Shown here piece by piece: positions 12,870-42,278 of a DNA stretch of 64,000 nt. The stretch lies in the NCBI GenBank assembly GCA_023957375.1, contig JAMLHB010000001.1:248001-312000 (forward strand). Direction: 5' to 3'. The notes under the pieces are model-generated. The model worked only from the letters and a program-made list of their open reading frames with translations. It had not been told where the DNA came from and made no database searches. This DNA is from Flavobacteriales bacterium (GTDB lineage Bacteria > Bacteroidota > Bacteroidia > Flavobacteriales_F > PHOS-HE28). How positions within the stretch are numbered: the first letter of the stretch is position 1; each line of letters begins with the position of its first letter. The translations under genes were made by a program, and so were the position numbers.

Positions 12870-13808
12870 ATGTCCCGCATTCTTGTTACCGGTGGAGCCG
12901 GATTCATCCCCAGTGCATTGACCATCCGCTTGTCCCAATTGCCCGGCACGGAGCTGTTGGCAGTGGACAACCTGACCACCGGAAACCTGGACAAGCTTGA
13001 ACTTGGCCGCCATCCCGCCATCCGGTTCATCAAATGCGACGTCAACCGCTTTGAGGATATCAGCAGCGTGTTCTACGCCTTCCGGCCCGAGTTCGTCTTC
13101 CACTATGCCGCCGTGGTGGGCGTGAAGCGCACCACCGACCACCCGGTGAACGTACTGCACGACATCGACGGTATCCGCAACGTGCTGGACCTGTGCAAGA
13201 ATTCGGGCGTGAAGCGTGTGTTCTTCAGCAGCAGCAGCGAGGTATACGGCGAACCGGTGGAGTTTCCGCAGAACGAGCACACCACCCCGCTGAACAGCAA
13301 ACTGCCCTATGCCATCGTGAAGAACGTCGGTGAGGCCTTTCTGCGCAGCTACCACCACGAATACGGCCTGGACTATACCATCTTCCGCTTCTTCAACACC
13401 TATGGCCCCAAGCAGAGCAAGGATTTCGTGGTCAGCAAGTTCATCCGGGCCGCATTGAAGAGGGAGGACATCACCATCTATGGCGACGGCAGGCAGACAC
13501 GCACCTTCTGCTTTATCGACGACAACATTGAGGCCACCGCCAACGCCTTCCGGAACGGGGAGGTGATCAATGACGTGGCCAACATCGGGAACGACCGGGA
13601 AACATGCATCCTGGACCTGGCCAAGCTGGTGATCGAGCTGACCGGGAGCAAGTCCAAGATCGTGCATCTGCCCCCGCTGGAAGTAGGCGACATGACGCGC
13701 CGGATGCCGGATATCGCCCGCATGCGCCAACTGCTGGGCCGCGAGCTGATGCCCCTGCGCCATGGGTTGGAGCGTGTGTTGGCCGACACCAGCCATATAC
13801 TGGATTAA
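12870..13808 (+). CDS. NAD-dependent epimerase/dehydratase (SDR)
   Basis: A 312-residue extended SDR. TGGAGFIPSALTIRL (residues 7-21) is the Rossmann loop with a Pro where Gly is usual (GFIPS instead of GFIGS). FFSSSSEVYGEP gives the catalytic Ser; the canonical YxxxK reads YAIVKNVGE (about residue 149), so Tyr and Lys are both kept. RFFNTYGPKQSKDFVVSKFI follows the usual substrate-domain pattern. It is probably a UDP-sugar epimerase or decarboxylase. It lies 31 bp after the polymerase-like gene and 8 bp before asnB, on one strand, so the three likely form one transcript. Confidence 0.85.
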   Translation: MSRILVTGGAGFIPSALTIRLSQLPGTELLAVDNLTTGNLDKLELGRHPAIRFIKCDVNRFEDISSVFYAFRPEFVFHYAAVVGVKRTTDHPVNVLHDIDGIRNVLDLCKNSGVKRVFFSSSSEVYGEPVEFPQNEHTTPLNSKLPYAIVKNVGEAFLRSYHHEYGLDYTIFRFFNTYGPKQSKDFVVSKFIRAALKREDITIYGDGRQTRTFCFIDDNIEATANAFRNGEVINDVANIGNDRETCILDLAKLVIELTGSKSKIVHLPPLEVGDMTRRMPDIARMRQLLGRELMPLRHGLERVLADTSHILD

Positions 13809-13816
13809 CCGGAAGC

Positions 13817-15703
13817 ATGTGCGGCATCGCGGGCATCGCAGCTCCAGCGGACGACCCTGGGCATGCGGGGGATTTTTCCCCCGCCTTGGACCGCATGAGC
13901 GGTGCCCTGGTCCATCGCGGCCCTGATGCCGGCGGCCGGTGGCAAGGCGGCAAGGTCCTCCTTGCCCATCGAAGGCTGGGCGTCATCGATCCCGGGCGCG
14001 GGGCCGATCAACCCATGCACAGCCCCGATGGCCGCTTCCAGATCGTGTACAACGGCGAAGTCTACAATTTCAAGGAATTGCGCAGTGCCCTGCCCGGCCA
14101 TCCGTTCCGCACCAACAGCGATACGGAAGTGGTCCTTGCCGCCTGGGCCGACCGCGGAGACCGCTGCCTGAAACAGCTCGAGGGCATGTTCGCCTTCGCG
14201 ATCTGGGATGTACAAGGGGAGGAGTTGACCCTGGTACGTGACCGGTTCGGGGAAAAACCCGTGTACTATGCCCAACTGGGCAAACGCTTGCTCTTTGCCA
14301 GTGAATTGAGAGCCTTGCTGGCCTCGGACATGGTTCCCCGCGAGTTGGACCAGGAGGCACTGATCGACCACATGCGCCACGGCGCGGTGCATGGTCCTTC
14401 CACCTTGGTGCAGGGGGTGCGCATGTTGCAGCCGGGACACCTGCTGCGCTGGAGTGCTTCCGGGGGTATCCGCATCCGGCGCTGGTGGAACATGGCTGAA
14501 AGTGTGGATCCCGCAGTAGGGGATCTGCCGCGTGCCGAATTGCTTCGGCAGGTGCGCGACCGGTTTTTCCACGCCGTGGAAAAGCGCTTGGTGGCTGACG
14601 TGCCCGTGGGGGCATTCCTCAGCGGGGGCATCGACAGCAGCGCCGTGGTGGGGGCAATGGCGCAGGTGTCGGCCACGCCGGTTCACACCTTTACGATCAC
14701 CTTCGATGAGGCGGAGTTCAGTGAGGCGCGCTTCGCGAAGATCATTGCTGAAAAATTCGGTACCAAGCACACCGAGATCCGCTTACGCCCCGAGGAGATG
14801 CTGCACCTGCTGCCGCAGGCGTTGGCCGGCATGGATCATCCAAGCGCCGACGGACCCAATACGTGGGTGGTGTCCAAAATGACCAAGGAAGCGGGCATTA
14901 CCGTGGCGCTCAGCGGTCTGGGCGGCGATGAACTGTTTGCCGGTTACGAGGTGTTCAAGCGCTCCCTAGCCTTGTTGCGCAACAGGCACATCACCGCGTT
15001 TCCCCGCCCGCTGCGCAACCTGGCCGCCTACTTAATGCAGAAGGCACGGCCGGGTGCCGCCGGCTGGAAGGCCGCCGAACTGCTCAAGCTTTCCGCATGG
15101 CGCGTGGCCGATACTTATCCCTTGGCCCGCTTGTCGCTGGGCGATGGTGAACTGCGCAAGCTCCTCACGGGCCCCCTTGGCCCGGATGCCGTGGCCGCCG
15201 ATGTGCGCCACGAACTGGAGGAGGTGCATGCCGCCCGGTTGCCGCCATTGGCACAAGTGAGCTTGGCCGAACTGGGTTCCTACCTGGTGGACACCCTGCT
15301 GCGCGACACCGACCAGATGGCCATGGCCCATGCGTTGGAAGTGCGTGCACCATTCCTCGACCACACCTTGGCGTCGTTGGTAATGGGCGTGCCCGACCGG
15401 GCCAAATTCCCGCACACGCCCAAAAAGCTCCTGACCGATGCGTTGGGTGACTTGCTTCCCAAGGAGGTGGTGCACCGGCCCAAGATGGGTTTCACCCTGC
15501 CATGGGACCAGTGGATGAGGGAACCCTTGCGCCACTTCTGTGCGGTGCGCATGGAAAGCCTTGGGCGACGGGCCCAGTTTGATGCAAGCGGTGTGAAGCA
15601 CCTGTGGGAGCGCTTCCTGTCACGCGACCCGGCCATCACCTGGACCCGGGTGTGGATGCTGGTGGTATTGGAGGAATGGATGCAGGCCAACCAAGTGGAG
15701 TAG
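13817..15703 (+). CDS. asnB: Asparagine synthase-type amidotransferase (AsnB family), copy 1
   Basis: A 628-residue protein. ATG 13817 is chosen because it places the glutaminase nucleophile at Cys2 (MCGIAGIAA), as required after methionine removal. The N-terminal glutamine amidotransferase domain shows HRGPDAGG near residue 34 and a VYNGEVYNF block. The synthetase domain has the PP-loop SGGIDSS (about residues 271-277) that binds ATP, and GLGGDELFAGY near 370. In polysaccharide loci such enzymes usually amidate sugar uronates rather than only making asparagine; the location favours that here. It converges with a second AsnB-family gene, with a 163-bp inverted-repeat element between them. Confidence 0.88.
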   Translation: MCGIAGIAAPADDPGHAGDFSPALDRMSGALVHRGPDAGGRWQGGKVLLAHRRLGVIDPGRGADQPMHSPDGRFQIVYNGEVYNFKELRSALPGHPFRTNSDTEVVLAAWADRGDRCLKQLEGMFAFAIWDVQGEELTLVRDRFGEKPVYYAQLGKRLLFASELRALLASDMVPRELDQEALIDHMRHGAVHGPSTLVQGVRMLQPGHLLRWSASGGIRIRRWWNMAESVDPAVGDLPRAELLRQVRDRFFHAVEKRLVADVPVGAFLSGGIDSSAVVGAMAQVSATPVHTFTITFDEAEFSEARFAKIIAEKFGTKHTEIRLRPEEMLHLLPQALAGMDHPSADGPNTWVVSKMTKEAGITVALSGLGGDELFAGYEVFKRSLALLRNRHITAFPRPLRNLAAYLMQKARPGAAGWKAAELLKLSAWRVADTYPLARLSLGDGELRKLLTGPLGPDAVAADVRHELEEVHAARLPPLAQVSLAELGSYLVDTLLRDTDQMAMAHALEVRAPFLDHTLASLVMGVPDRAKFPHTPKKLLTDALGDLLPKEVVHRPKMGFTLPWDQWMREPLRHFCAVRMESLGRRAQFDASGVKHLWERFLSRDPAITWTRVWMLVVLEEWMQANQVE

Positions 15704-15735
15704 GCGGGGCGGCGGTTGTGGCCGGTTGGGCCTTT

Positions 15736-15898
15736 ATACCCTTTCGCAATAAAGCCCCATCCGATCTACTTGCTCTTTTTCCGCATGGCCTCTCCGATGA
15801 GGTCATTCCGTAGACACCGCTACGCAACGCCCTCCTCGTATCGCCCTGCGAAAAAATAGCTGCGCATCTTTGGACGGCCCCTTATTGCGAAAGGGTAT
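15736..15898. repeat. Inverted-repeat element, copy A (163 bp)
   Basis: A 17-bp perfect stem, ATACCCTTTCGCAATAA at 15736-15752, is the reverse complement of 15882-15898. The enclosed core 15761-15877 matches 41341-41457 over 117 bp without gaps, at roughly 85% identity. The right stem begins at the last base of the TAA stop codon of the minus-strand asnB gene (15898-15900). It lies between two convergent genes and could form a bidirectional terminator-like hairpin. No gene is evident inside. Confidence 0.75.
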
Positions 15899-17772
15899 TA
15901 TTGCCCGGCCACGTGCAAGTTCCACCAATGGGACAGCACAAAGTGCGGCCAGAATTCCTTTCCCGTAACCCGTCCCTCCGCGATCCGTTGCCGGAACCGG
16001 GGTGAGTAGAGCCTGAAACTATCGTCCATGGCCAGCACCAGGTCGCGTTGGGCCATGGCCTGCGCATGGTCAAGCACCTTTTCCATGGGGATCTCGAAGC
16101 CCACTTTGGGGCGATCAATGATCGAACTTGGCAACAGCTTGGCGGCAAACCGCTTGAGGGCCAGCTTTTCACCCCCCTTGCCGAACAACAGAGAGGTCTT
16201 CAAGCGCAGGCTCTGCTCCACCAGCCGGTGGTCCAAAAAGGGTACGCGGGCCTCGATGGAGGCGGCCATGGACATGCGGTCCACCCGCGCAAGCAGGTAT
16301 TCGGGCAAGTGGAATTGCAGGTCGAACGCGCTCAGGCGCTGCACCAGGTCCGCTTCCCGGCAGGCAGGGGCATCATAGTGGCTGCGGACGATGCTGTAAG
16401 GGTCGCGGGCCTGCTCCAGAAATTCAGCCGCGAACACCGTTTCTTGGCGCTTCAGGGCCATGGCATCAATGCCGCCCCAAATGATGTACTGCCCCAGGAC
16501 GTGGCGATGTGCCCATGCCGACCACCCGGGCTTGCGCCGGGCCAAAGGCCCCGCCATGGCAAGCAGTGCCTTCCAGAACGGGCGCGGCGCCATGTGCAGG
16601 GCCCGGTCCACGCGGTACGCATCGTGCCAGTGCCGGTAGCCGATGAACAGCTCATCGGATCCCTCCCCGCTCAGGCACACCTTCACCCCCTCGGCACGTG
16701 CCTTCTCGCTCAGCAGCAACAAAGGGCCGCACGCGCTGTTGGCTATGGGCTCGTCCAAAATGCCGAACACCCGTTGCTGGGCATGCAGGTATTCTTCCGG
16801 CGTTATGCGGATGGCATGGTGCCGCGTGTTGAGGTGCTCGGAGACCACCAGGGCAGCGGGCAGCTCGCTTTGGTAGCCCGGGTGGTTCCCTGCAAAACCG
16901 ATACTGAACGTGTTGACACGCCGACCGCCGCGCGAAGCCAAGGCGGTGATCACCGAGGAATCCAGCCCGCCGGACAAATAGGTGCCTACCTCAACATCGG
17001 CCACCAGCTGCAGGTCCACCGATTCCTGCAACAGTTCCATGCACCCTCCCGCGTCGCCAAGGTCGCGCCCATGGGAGGCCGCGATCAGGGGGTGCCAATA
17101 GGCCATGGGGTTGGCCTGCCCACCGTTCAGTTCCAGCAGATGCCCGGCTGGAAGTTTGCAGATCCCTTCCAGAAAGGTGGCCGTTCCTTCCACCTGCAGA
17201 AAATTGAAATAGCCGGCCAGTTCCCGCCGGTTGGCCCGGCGACTGCCCAGAATGGCCTTCGGTTCGCTGGCGAAGGTGAACACACCTTGGTGGTACTTGT
17301 AATAGAAGGGCTTTATCCCCACCCGGTCCCGCGCTGCCAGCACCGTGCCTTCGTCATTGTCGATGAACACGAACGCGAACATCCCGTTCAGATGGGCCAG
17401 GGCATCCTTGCCCCACTGGATACAGGCATAGAGCAGGGTCTCGGTATCGGAGTGGTGGGTGGTGAACCGGTGCCCCAAGCCTTCCAGTTCTCCCCGCAAC
17501 GCGCTGTTGTTGTACAATTCCCCATTGTACACCAGCCAGTAGCGCCCGTCCGGGGTTGACATGGGCTGGTTGGCGTTGGGCGCAAGGTCCAGGATGGAGA
17601 GCCGTGCATGGCCCAGCTTCCAGCGCAGGCGCGCAGGCGGTTGCGCCAACGCCCCGGAGCGCAGCGTGACCAAGGCATCGGGGCCGCGGTGGGCAAGGCG
17701 CTGGATGTCGAAGGTATCCAACTGCTCTTTCGCACCGGCCTGCCACGTGATGGATCCCGCAATGCCGCACAT
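15898..17772 (-). CDS. asnB: Asparagine synthase-type amidotransferase (AsnB family), copy 2
   Basis: A 624-residue protein starting MCGIAGSITW, with Cys2 as the glutaminase nucleophile. HRGPDAL near residue 32 and the LVYNGELYNN block belong to the amidotransferase domain; SGGLDSS (about residues 267-273) is the ATP pyrophosphatase loop, and SGEGSDELFIGY near 370 follows. It differs throughout from the convergent copy, so the two are not a recent duplicate and may act on different substrates in polysaccharide synthesis. A TACATTTG box lies 70 nt upstream. Its TAA stop shares its final A with the inverted-repeat element that follows. Confidence 0.87.
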   Translation of the reverse strand: MCGIAGSITWQAGAKEQLDTFDIQRLAHRGPDALVTLRSGALAQPPARLRWKLGHARLSILDLAPNANQPMSTPDGRYWLVYNGELYNNSALRGELEGLGHRFTTHHSDTETLLYACIQWGKDALAHLNGMFAFVFIDNDEGTVLAARDRVGIKPFYYKYHQGVFTFASEPKAILGSRRANRRELAGYFNFLQVEGTATFLEGICKLPAGHLLELNGGQANPMAYWHPLIAASHGRDLGDAGGCMELLQESVDLQLVADVEVGTYLSGGLDSSVITALASRGGRRVNTFSIGFAGNHPGYQSELPAALVVSEHLNTRHHAIRITPEEYLHAQQRVFGILDEPIANSACGPLLLLSEKARAEGVKVCLSGEGSDELFIGYRHWHDAYRVDRALHMAPRPFWKALLAMAGPLARRKPGWSAWAHRHVLGQYIIWGGIDAMALKRQETVFAAEFLEQARDPYSIVRSHYDAPACREADLVQRLSAFDLQFHLPEYLLARVDRMSMAASIEARVPFLDHRLVEQSLRLKTSLLFGKGGEKLALKRFAAKLLPSSIIDRPKVGFEIPMEKVLDHAQAMAQRDLVLAMDDSFRLYSPRFRQRIAEGRVTGKEFWPHFVLSHWWNLHVAGQ

Positions 17773-40891: not shown

Positions 40892-41008
40892 GGCGCGGGG
40901 TATTTATAGGGTAAATGTACGATCCAAATGATGCACGTTTAAGTGCACAAGAACCATGCCTGTTTCCGTTCGGGGTAAACAAGCTCCGGAATAAACTGGA
41001 AGGCCCTC

Positions 41009-41478
41009 ATACCAATTAGCCATTCAATATCCACTGGCGTCCGGGACAACATCCCAACACCGGCTGCGACACCCTCCGGGGTCGGCGCGCACACGGGCCT
41101 GTTGGTCTATAAGCTTTGACCCCTCCGGGGTCAGGCCCCTTTGTTGACGCTGGGTTCTTGACCCCGGAGGGGTCGCAGCTTGTAACATTTGCCCACCACA
41201 TGGTATTCGACCCCGGAGGGTGTCGCAGCCGGTGTGCCTGACACGGGGAGCTGCGTTGCACGCCCCATCCATTTCCATACAGGGCAGGGCGCCCCGACCT
41301 ATGCCGTTGCTTATCCCGGACACCAATGATTCAATATCAGCCGATCTGCTTGCTCTTTTTCCACATGGCTTCTCCGTGCCATGCGTTCCGTAGGCACCGC
41401 TACGCAACGCCCGTTACGGATCGCCCTGCGAAAAATTAGCTGCGCATCTTTGGCCGGAATTGAATGTCTAATTGGTAT
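41009..41478. repeat. Inverted-repeat element, copy B (470 bp), with nested REP palindromes
   Basis: The left stem ATACCAATTAGCCATTCAAT (41009-41028) pairs with 41459-41478 at 19 of 20 positions. The core 41341-41457 matches copy A (15761-15877). A second, degenerate left end (ACACCAATGATTCAATATC, from 41320) lies inside, so a shorter unit of about 159 bp like copy A can be defined. Between the two left ends sit four REP-like palindromes: 41068-41083 and 41118-41132 in one orientation, then 41160-41174 and 41209-41224 in the other. The right stem begins at the last base of the TAA of the phosphatase gene. It fills the 40892-41477 gap, with no gene seen. Confidence 0.78.
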
Positions 41479-42278
41479 TAAGCGTCCTGGCGCTGCCAAT
41501 TGCGCTCGATCACTTCCAGCAATTCCTCGTGGATCGCGTTGTTGCTGGCCACGATCTCTTCGTCGAACACTGGATCCTTGGCAGGGTGGAAGCCACTGAC
41601 ACGTCCGCCGGCCTCGCGGACCAGGATGACGCCAGCGGCCACGTCCCAGCTGTTGAGCCCGTATTCGTAAAAGGCTTCGAAGCGTCCGCAGGCCACGTAG
41701 GCCAGGTCGGCGGCGGCACTGCCCAAGCGGCGGATGCCCCGGGTACGGTGCATCAGCTCGCGCAGCAGGTCCATGTATTCGCTCTCAAAGCCGAAGTCGT
41801 CGTATGGAAAGCCGGTGGCCAGGAGGCTGTCCTGCAATTGGTCCCTGGTGGATACGCTGATGGGGTTGCCATTGAGGGTGGCGCCGCCGCCCCGCCAAGC
41901 CGCAAAGCATTCGTCGCGCGTCACCTCCAGCACTACGCCCAGCAGAATTTCCTCCTTTTGCACCAAGGCCACACTGGTGCAATAGCTGGGCACGCCGTGC
42001 ACGAAATTGGTGGTGCCGTCCAAGGGGTCGATCACCCAATTCAGGCCCTGGGAGGGTTCGCCCGTGCCCTCCTCGGCGATGAAGCCGGCTTCCGGGAGCA
42101 ATTCACGCAGTCCTTCCACGAACCGCTGCTCAGCCTCCTTGTCCACGTAGCTCACTAAGTTGTTGAGGCTCTTGTTTTCCACCCGGTCATCGGTGAAGCG
42201 TTGGCTTTCCACGCGGATGAACGCCGCCACGTCCCTGCTCAGCAGGGCTACTTGTTCAGTGAGCTTTTTCAGGTCCAT
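41478..42278 (-). CDS. Inositol monophosphatase family protein
   Basis: A 266-residue Mg-dependent phosphatase. Metal ligands are visible at Glu70 (IAEEGTG) and in the signature DPLDGTTNF (residues 84-92: Asp84, Asp87), with the C-terminal WDVAAG motif near residue 206 supplying the third Asp. Substrates in bacteria include inositol-1-phosphate and other sugar or nucleotide phosphates (SuhB/CysQ group); the exact one cannot be told. It overlaps the 3' end of lgt by 23 bp (42256-42278) and is probably co-transcribed with it. Its TAA is the first part of the TAATACC end of the following inverted-repeat element. Confidence 0.88.
   Translation of the reverse strand: MDLKKLTEQVALLSRDVAAFIRVESQRFTDDRVENKSLNNLVSYVDKEAEQRFVEGLRELLPEAGFIAEEGTGEPSQGLNWVIDPLDGTTNFVHGVPSYCTSVALVQKEEILLGVVLEVTRDECFAAWRGGGATLNGNPISVSTRDQLQDSLLATGFPYDDFGFESEYMDLLRELMHRTRGIRRLGSAAADLAYVACGRFEAFYEYGLNSWDVAAGVILVREAGGRVSGFHPAKDPVFDEEIVASNNAIHEELLEVIERNWQRQDA

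Follow-up and report, generated by a model that had tools for sequence, protein, structure and literature searches.

The window analysed here, a stretch of 64,000 nucleotides from a Flavobacteriales genome, contains two copies of a repeat, A and B, whose stems differ in sequence while each arm remains complementary to its own partner. This raises the question of how both arms of a stem can change together. The original prediction ascribed the pattern to selection on secondary structure, or to stems acquired from the target, rather than to simple copying of the whole unit. The copies are very probably structured MITEs of approximately 163 bp, moved in trans by TNA-duplicating DDE transposases, most likely of the IS5-family/IS1031-like kind.

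Two hairpin copies and the family to which they belong

The outer stem of copy A, claimed to be perfect, pairs at 17 of 17 positions and encloses 129 bp (Table 1). In copy B, for which 19 of 20 pairs had been claimed, the 20-nt arms at 41009-41028 and 41459-41478 are 95% complementary, and its 117-bp core is 86% identical to that of copy A, in line with the predicted value of about 85%. The window contains two matches to a core motif; the expectation from 100 shuffles is 0.00. Copy B is 470 bp long only because a separate 297-bp element sits between its left arm and its core. This element has imperfect ends (CAYTGGYGTCCGGGAYAA) and nested GACCCC palindromes in its middle (41057-41084 / 41208-41235), which resemble those around Y1 transposase genes, and similar sequence also splits other hairpin copies (L007/L019, L010). 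Copy A sits between convergent asparagine-synthase/glutamine-amidotransferase paralogues (13604-15703, plus strand, and 15898-17772, minus strand) that are approximately 36% identical.

Table 1. Features of copies A and B, in positions of the window
Feature	Position	Strand	Remarks
Copy A, element between its two target duplications	15737..15897	- (sense strand = minus)	ends TACC...GGTA; R1 match 15732-15903 minus, 183.7 bits
Copy A, left TNA target duplication	15734..15736	.	TTA on +, TAA in sense; supported by family statistics
Copy A, right TNA target duplication	15898..15900	-	TAA stop codon of asparagine-synthase-like gene 15898-17772; element-free orthologues share the end position
Copy A, outer stem, left arm ATACCCTTTCGCAATAA	15736..15752	.	
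Copy A, outer stem, right arm TTATTGCGAAAGGGTAT	15882..15898	.	
Copy A, conserved inner-duplex strand (GCTCTTTTTCCGCAT on +)	15772..15786	-	
Copy A, conserved TAGCTGCGCATCTTTGG	15857..15873	-	first bases pair with 15772..15786; remainder is a short helix and internal loops
Copy A, conserved apical hairpin CGTAG-loop-CTACG	15809..15824	-	
Copy B, element between its target duplications, split by insert	41010..41477	-	R1 match 41316-41483 minus, 147.9 bits
Copy B, right TNA	41478..41480	-	TAA stop codon of inositol-monophosphatase-family gene 41478-42278
Copy B, left TNA	41007-41009		TGA in sense
Separate 297-bp element inside copy B	41032..41328	.	10-bp ATTCAATATC duplication at 41022-41031 and 41329-41338; GACCCC palindromes within

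When the 117-bp core was searched for in the same genome (3.83 Mb), 24 matches were obtained, three of which are second halves of interrupted copies; a covariance-model search added two further copies, giving approximately 23 in total. Uninterrupted copies measure 161-164 bp and have arms of 17-29 nt. By eye, at least seven stem types occur among the approximately 23 copies, so the claim that stems differ and stay self-complementary is borne out; the contrary picture, identical stems in most copies, was looked for in this set and not found.

Thirteen copies of the same genome served to build a covariance model, R1. Among 39 genomes of relatives it matched 15, all of the same genus, and none of the 16 from other families of the class. 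Within the genus, 30 of 45 genomes have matches, with 1 to 60 matches where the family is present, antisense echoes included. When 84,980 species genomes were scanned for a pattern of the family, 47 stretches were obtained, of which 40 were confirmed by R1; these belong to Bacteroidota and nearly all come from MAGs labelled Flavobacteriales or Bacteroidetes. The other seven (L103, L105, L108, L113, L114, L119 and L144) were not confirmed by the model. Two confirmed loci, L118 and L141, are labelled Chryseobacterium gleum; their scores equal those of hits in G015, a genome of the same genus as the window, and the label is therefore probably wrong. As sampled, the hairpin family is restricted to one genus, its absence from sister genera resting on the 16 genomes of the class and the pattern scan. 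The plasmid and phage records searched held no match to it, and no Rfam 15 family was matched by the whole window at gathering level or by copy A at E up to 5.

A covarying hairpin with a sense strand

For the 13 copies of the same genome, RNAalifold gave a single hairpin of 59 pairs, in 28 of which both partners are changed in one or more copies. In this alignment, 93.9% of the cells are paired, compared to 35-45% in slid controls, the covariation score is 0.413 against 0.165 after shuffling, and the 28 both-side changes were reached in 0 of 500 shuffles. The covariation analysis that the original prediction had proposed thus speaks for selection on secondary structure. Larger sets gave a similar result: 92.3% of cells are paired and 45/59 pairs changed on both sides among 86 copies (85 distinct), with 92.7% and 44/59 among 18 copies that have other ends and took no part in model building, both alignments being fitted to the model and leaning towards it.

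Two helices are variable, namely the outer stem and one inner helix under the apical loop, and conserved internal loops and the CGTAG/CTACG apex are found between them. The inner helices covary as well, with both-side changes at 12/17 pairs of helix 6 (85 copies) and 10/17 pairs of helix 5 (18 copies). Pair 57-133 is UG in 81 of the 85 copies. The hairpin also has a strand asymmetry. Within pairs that are mostly Watson-Crick, GU is more frequent than AC (37 against 9 in the MAFFT alignment, 350 against 93 in the larger alignment), a comparison that carries some bias, as the structure was predicted on that strand. Folding as RNA or single-stranded DNA, also suggested beforehand as a check, was more favourable for the sense strand than for its complement in 14/14 copies, with RNA and with DNA parameters. 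The hairpin is not followed by a U-tract, and a scan for intrinsic terminators was at chance level (one weak site, 0.5 expected).

Target duplication, ends and placement in stop codons

Ends were read from 125 matches (124 distinct). Both ends were not located by the script in 37/124, some through parsing alone, and these were dropped. The 87 copies with parsed ends were sorted by the script into 76 of the TACC type and 11 of the GAGCC type. A TNA triplet is present on both sides in 59 of the 87 and missing on one or both sides in 28. The two triplets are the same in 46 of these 59 (28 TAA, 11 TTA, 5 TCA and 2 TGA) and unequal in 13; shuffling of the middle base gave a mean of 22.3 matching pairs and never reached 46 in 20000 trials. 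The arms lie inside this TNA duplication and therefore belong to the element. The data contradict an origin of the stems in the target, whose sole contribution is the 3-bp TNA outside the arms; identical arms also recur at unrelated loci. Matched duplications were found in 1/12 copies with poorly paired arms and in 33/53 with well-paired arms (p=0.0009; the 12 include a few that the script had wrongly anchored), as expected if copies with mismatched arms are later recombinants. Several features of a MITE are found together here, namely small size, terminal inverted repeats, no transposase gene and a TNA target site duplication. Adjacent copies share one TNA in L266 and L201, so that insertion right at the edge of an existing element is possible; in L266, a single TAA is common to a TACC-type and a GAGCC-type copy.

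The ends are exchangeable, as one core carries at least three types: TACC..., GAGCCTGTT... and GTGTGGTAACCCG/TGTCGCAACCCG (L066, L264, with a variant in L277). The GAGCCTGTT ends occur in 22 of the 45 genomes of the genus, where a pattern search for them yielded inverted pairs all under approximately 350 bp (by eye) and no IS-sized unit. A 913-bp IS in one relative, G008 (L155 position 1067-2000), has ends that match the GAGCCTGTT type at 17/18 bases on each side, and its transposase fragment is assigned to the IS5 family (NF033580, 135.9 bits, cut-off 110). It is present as a single copy with a frame-broken transposase. Besides this decayed IS5-family IS with GGCCTGTTTGGGATCTTTT-type ends, no autonomous-like relative of the GAGCC ends was found. 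The GAGCC-type end also agrees with the printed end of ISLrh at 12-14/17 bases over four variants. According to the text of PMC12016507 available to us, ISLrh is an IS of the IS1031 subgroup in the IS5 family and TNA is the exclusive duplication of that subgroup, in line with the TNA duplication of the hairpin family.

The TACC-type end does not match the IS1031-like terminal sequence. An IS partner for it was found neither by arm pattern in the genome of the window, nor among the PF01609 and PF13340 loci of the genus, nor in a scan for TNA-flanked end pairs (359 loci, 1.22 Mb), nor by a second pattern in 45 genomes. The TACC transposase may be IS5/IS1031-like.

Related ends were also seen on other cores. 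L184 (position 337-443) and L182 (position 287-425) are two more hairpin families with ATACC...GGTAT ends and different cores of 107 and 139 bp, the mirror image of one core with several ends. At L178 (C1:1518800-1520900 of the same genome), a Y1-transposase pseudogene and GACCCC palindromes lie between the halves of another hairpin, which ends in ...GAATTGGTATAA and resembles an element with TACC ends around another core. The small inverted-repeat elements L183 and L194, and L185 and L196, have ends matching resident ISs (CCCGGATTATGCAGTAG; CAATGTCATTAAGTTAAGG) and are ordinary IS-derived MITEs of the same genome.

Whatever its middle base, a TNA triplet reads as a stop codon in one orientation, directly in the case of TAA and TGA and as the reverse complement in the case of TTA and TCA. 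The duplicated triplets show an excess at stop codons: 22 of 59 terminate an ORF that is at least 100 codons long, compared to 115 of 1213 other TNA triplets within 300 bp (9.5%), these counts being estimates from ORFs called mechanically in GC-rich DNA. Crudely predicted genes contain 26 of the 59 sites; when sites inside predicted genes are left out, the comparison is 12/33 against 33/310 (p=0.0003). Copies with matched duplications at stop codons are oriented sense to the gene in 15 cases and antisense in 4 (p=0.019), and the bias is weaker in the full set of 87, with 17 sense and 11 antisense copies among those whose duplication falls on an ORF stop.

Both window copies follow this rule. 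The gene at copy B, of the Inositol_P family, ends in ...RQDA-TAA at the element, and its orthologues without the element end in ...RQD, ...RQDS or ...RQDA, followed by TGA, TAG or TAA (30 loci, three of them, L279, L301 and L305, unusable as the script picked another frame). The gene at copy A is an asparagine synthase (TIGR01536) ending in ...HVAGQ-TAA; the ends are ...HIAGN-TGA and ...HMASR-TAA in its two closest relatives, with differences of a few residues in those further removed. Since these genes terminate at the same position in orthologues that lack the element, both copies, judged from this comparison, were inserted into native stop codons. Copy B has TAA next to the gene and TGA at its far end, which is consistent with an original TGA, the coding copy of which later changed from one stop to another. 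In a literature search limited to titles and the starts of abstracts, which is no proof of absence from print, neither MITEs placed in stop codons through TNA nor this hairpin family were found, and the term "stop codon" occurs nowhere in a review of prokaryotic MITEs (PMC10969869).

Explanations and comparison with known systems

If the copies are structured MITEs moved in trans, an insertion at a stop codon would rebuild the codon, every TNA being TAA or TGA on one strand, and leave the protein unchanged, so that such insertions would survive. The hairpin would be selected on the sense strand as RNA, as a putative 3'-UTR structure that probably ends or protects the upstream transcript. The variety of stems would follow because transposase-matched ends and a paired hairpin both require the arms to change together. 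A more tentative extension takes the core to be a portable RNA 3' end. At least three sets of transposon ends would have adopted this module, which would land exactly at the junction of coding sequence and 3' UTR through TNA as stop codon; its sense strand would be kept because the hairpin in the transcript helps the upstream gene by termination, decay protection or RNase processing.

A possible but doubtful alternative is that the arms covary only since a DDE transposase needs matching terminal repeats, with the hairpin itself unselected and the stems marking subfamilies adapted to different transposases. The TNA duplication and terminal repeats agree with this, as do the three end types, one of which is IS5-like. 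However, the inner helices lie far from the ends and covary too, and the excess of GU over AC on one strand is not predicted by recognition of double-stranded ends. The block-wise differences between stem types also fit template switching during replication, by which one arm would be replaced with the reverse complement of its partner in the absence of functional selection; the accessible part of PMC8794818 describes how this process creates and repairs hairpin stems with multi-base compensatory changes. As the sole cause it is unlikely, because perfect pairing would be expected, whereas the internal loops and the G-U pair at 57-133 are conserved. Template switching may aid the joint change of the arms in a selected hairpin but does not explain its conserved loops and wobble pairs.

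The structure on the sense strand and the preference of matched-duplication copies for the sense orientation at stop codons could also point to a functional regulatory RNA of the 3' UTR that is merely carried about and is not a selfish element. This seems improbable in view of the patchy presence of the family in the genus, neighbours that differ from site to site and the lack of an Rfam family. Movement by a RAYT (Y1) transposase, as for REP/BIME-type elements, is suggested by the Y1_Tnp genes in 33 of the 45 genomes of the genus. R1 matched at 0 of 20 Y1_Tnp loci, many of which are flanked by GACCC-type palindromes instead, and this link was rejected as extremely improbable. To our knowledge, a TNA duplication is also not expected from Y1 chemistry.

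The structured MITE explanation gives a simple rule for the harmless entry of transposons into gene-dense genomes, in which a TNA-specific transposase inserts in TAA or TGA and rebuilds the stop. In addition, the family is a case of a single structured core combined with several kinds of transposon ends, and provides a large natural covariation set within one genus that could separate the effects of end recognition, RNA structure and template switching.

Several known systems share part of these properties. ISs of the IS1031 subgroup of the IS5 family, such as ISLrh, and the MITEs derived from them have the same 3-bp TNA duplication and GAxCCTGT... ends (12-14/17 over the four variants compared with the printed end), and an IS5-family transposase with such ends is present in one relative. 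Unlike these, the hairpin family has mainly TACC... ends, a long covarying hairpin and no internal transposase, and no intact partner was found. REPIN/RAYT systems also consist of dispersed palindromes in the same genomes, but their short GACCC-type palindromes adjoin Y1 genes and are separate from the hairpin family. The bcr repeats of the Bacillus cereus group, as described in PMC3446304, are likewise dispersed, MITE-like or structured, and often within UTRs; they belong to another phylum, and no homology or shared ends with the hairpin family were seen. The NEMIS/Correia, ERIC/IRU, RUP and YPAL elements, as far as described in the part of PMC2229807 at hand, are similar in their length of 100-200 bp, terminal inverted repeats, target duplication and long stem-loop transcript, whereas the hairpin family differs in stems that vary widely between copies of one genome, in its TNA target, in its placement in stop codons and in the several end types on one core. 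By size, terminal repeats and duplication, the hairpin family can be classed as a MITE, and it works like the structured MITEs described there.
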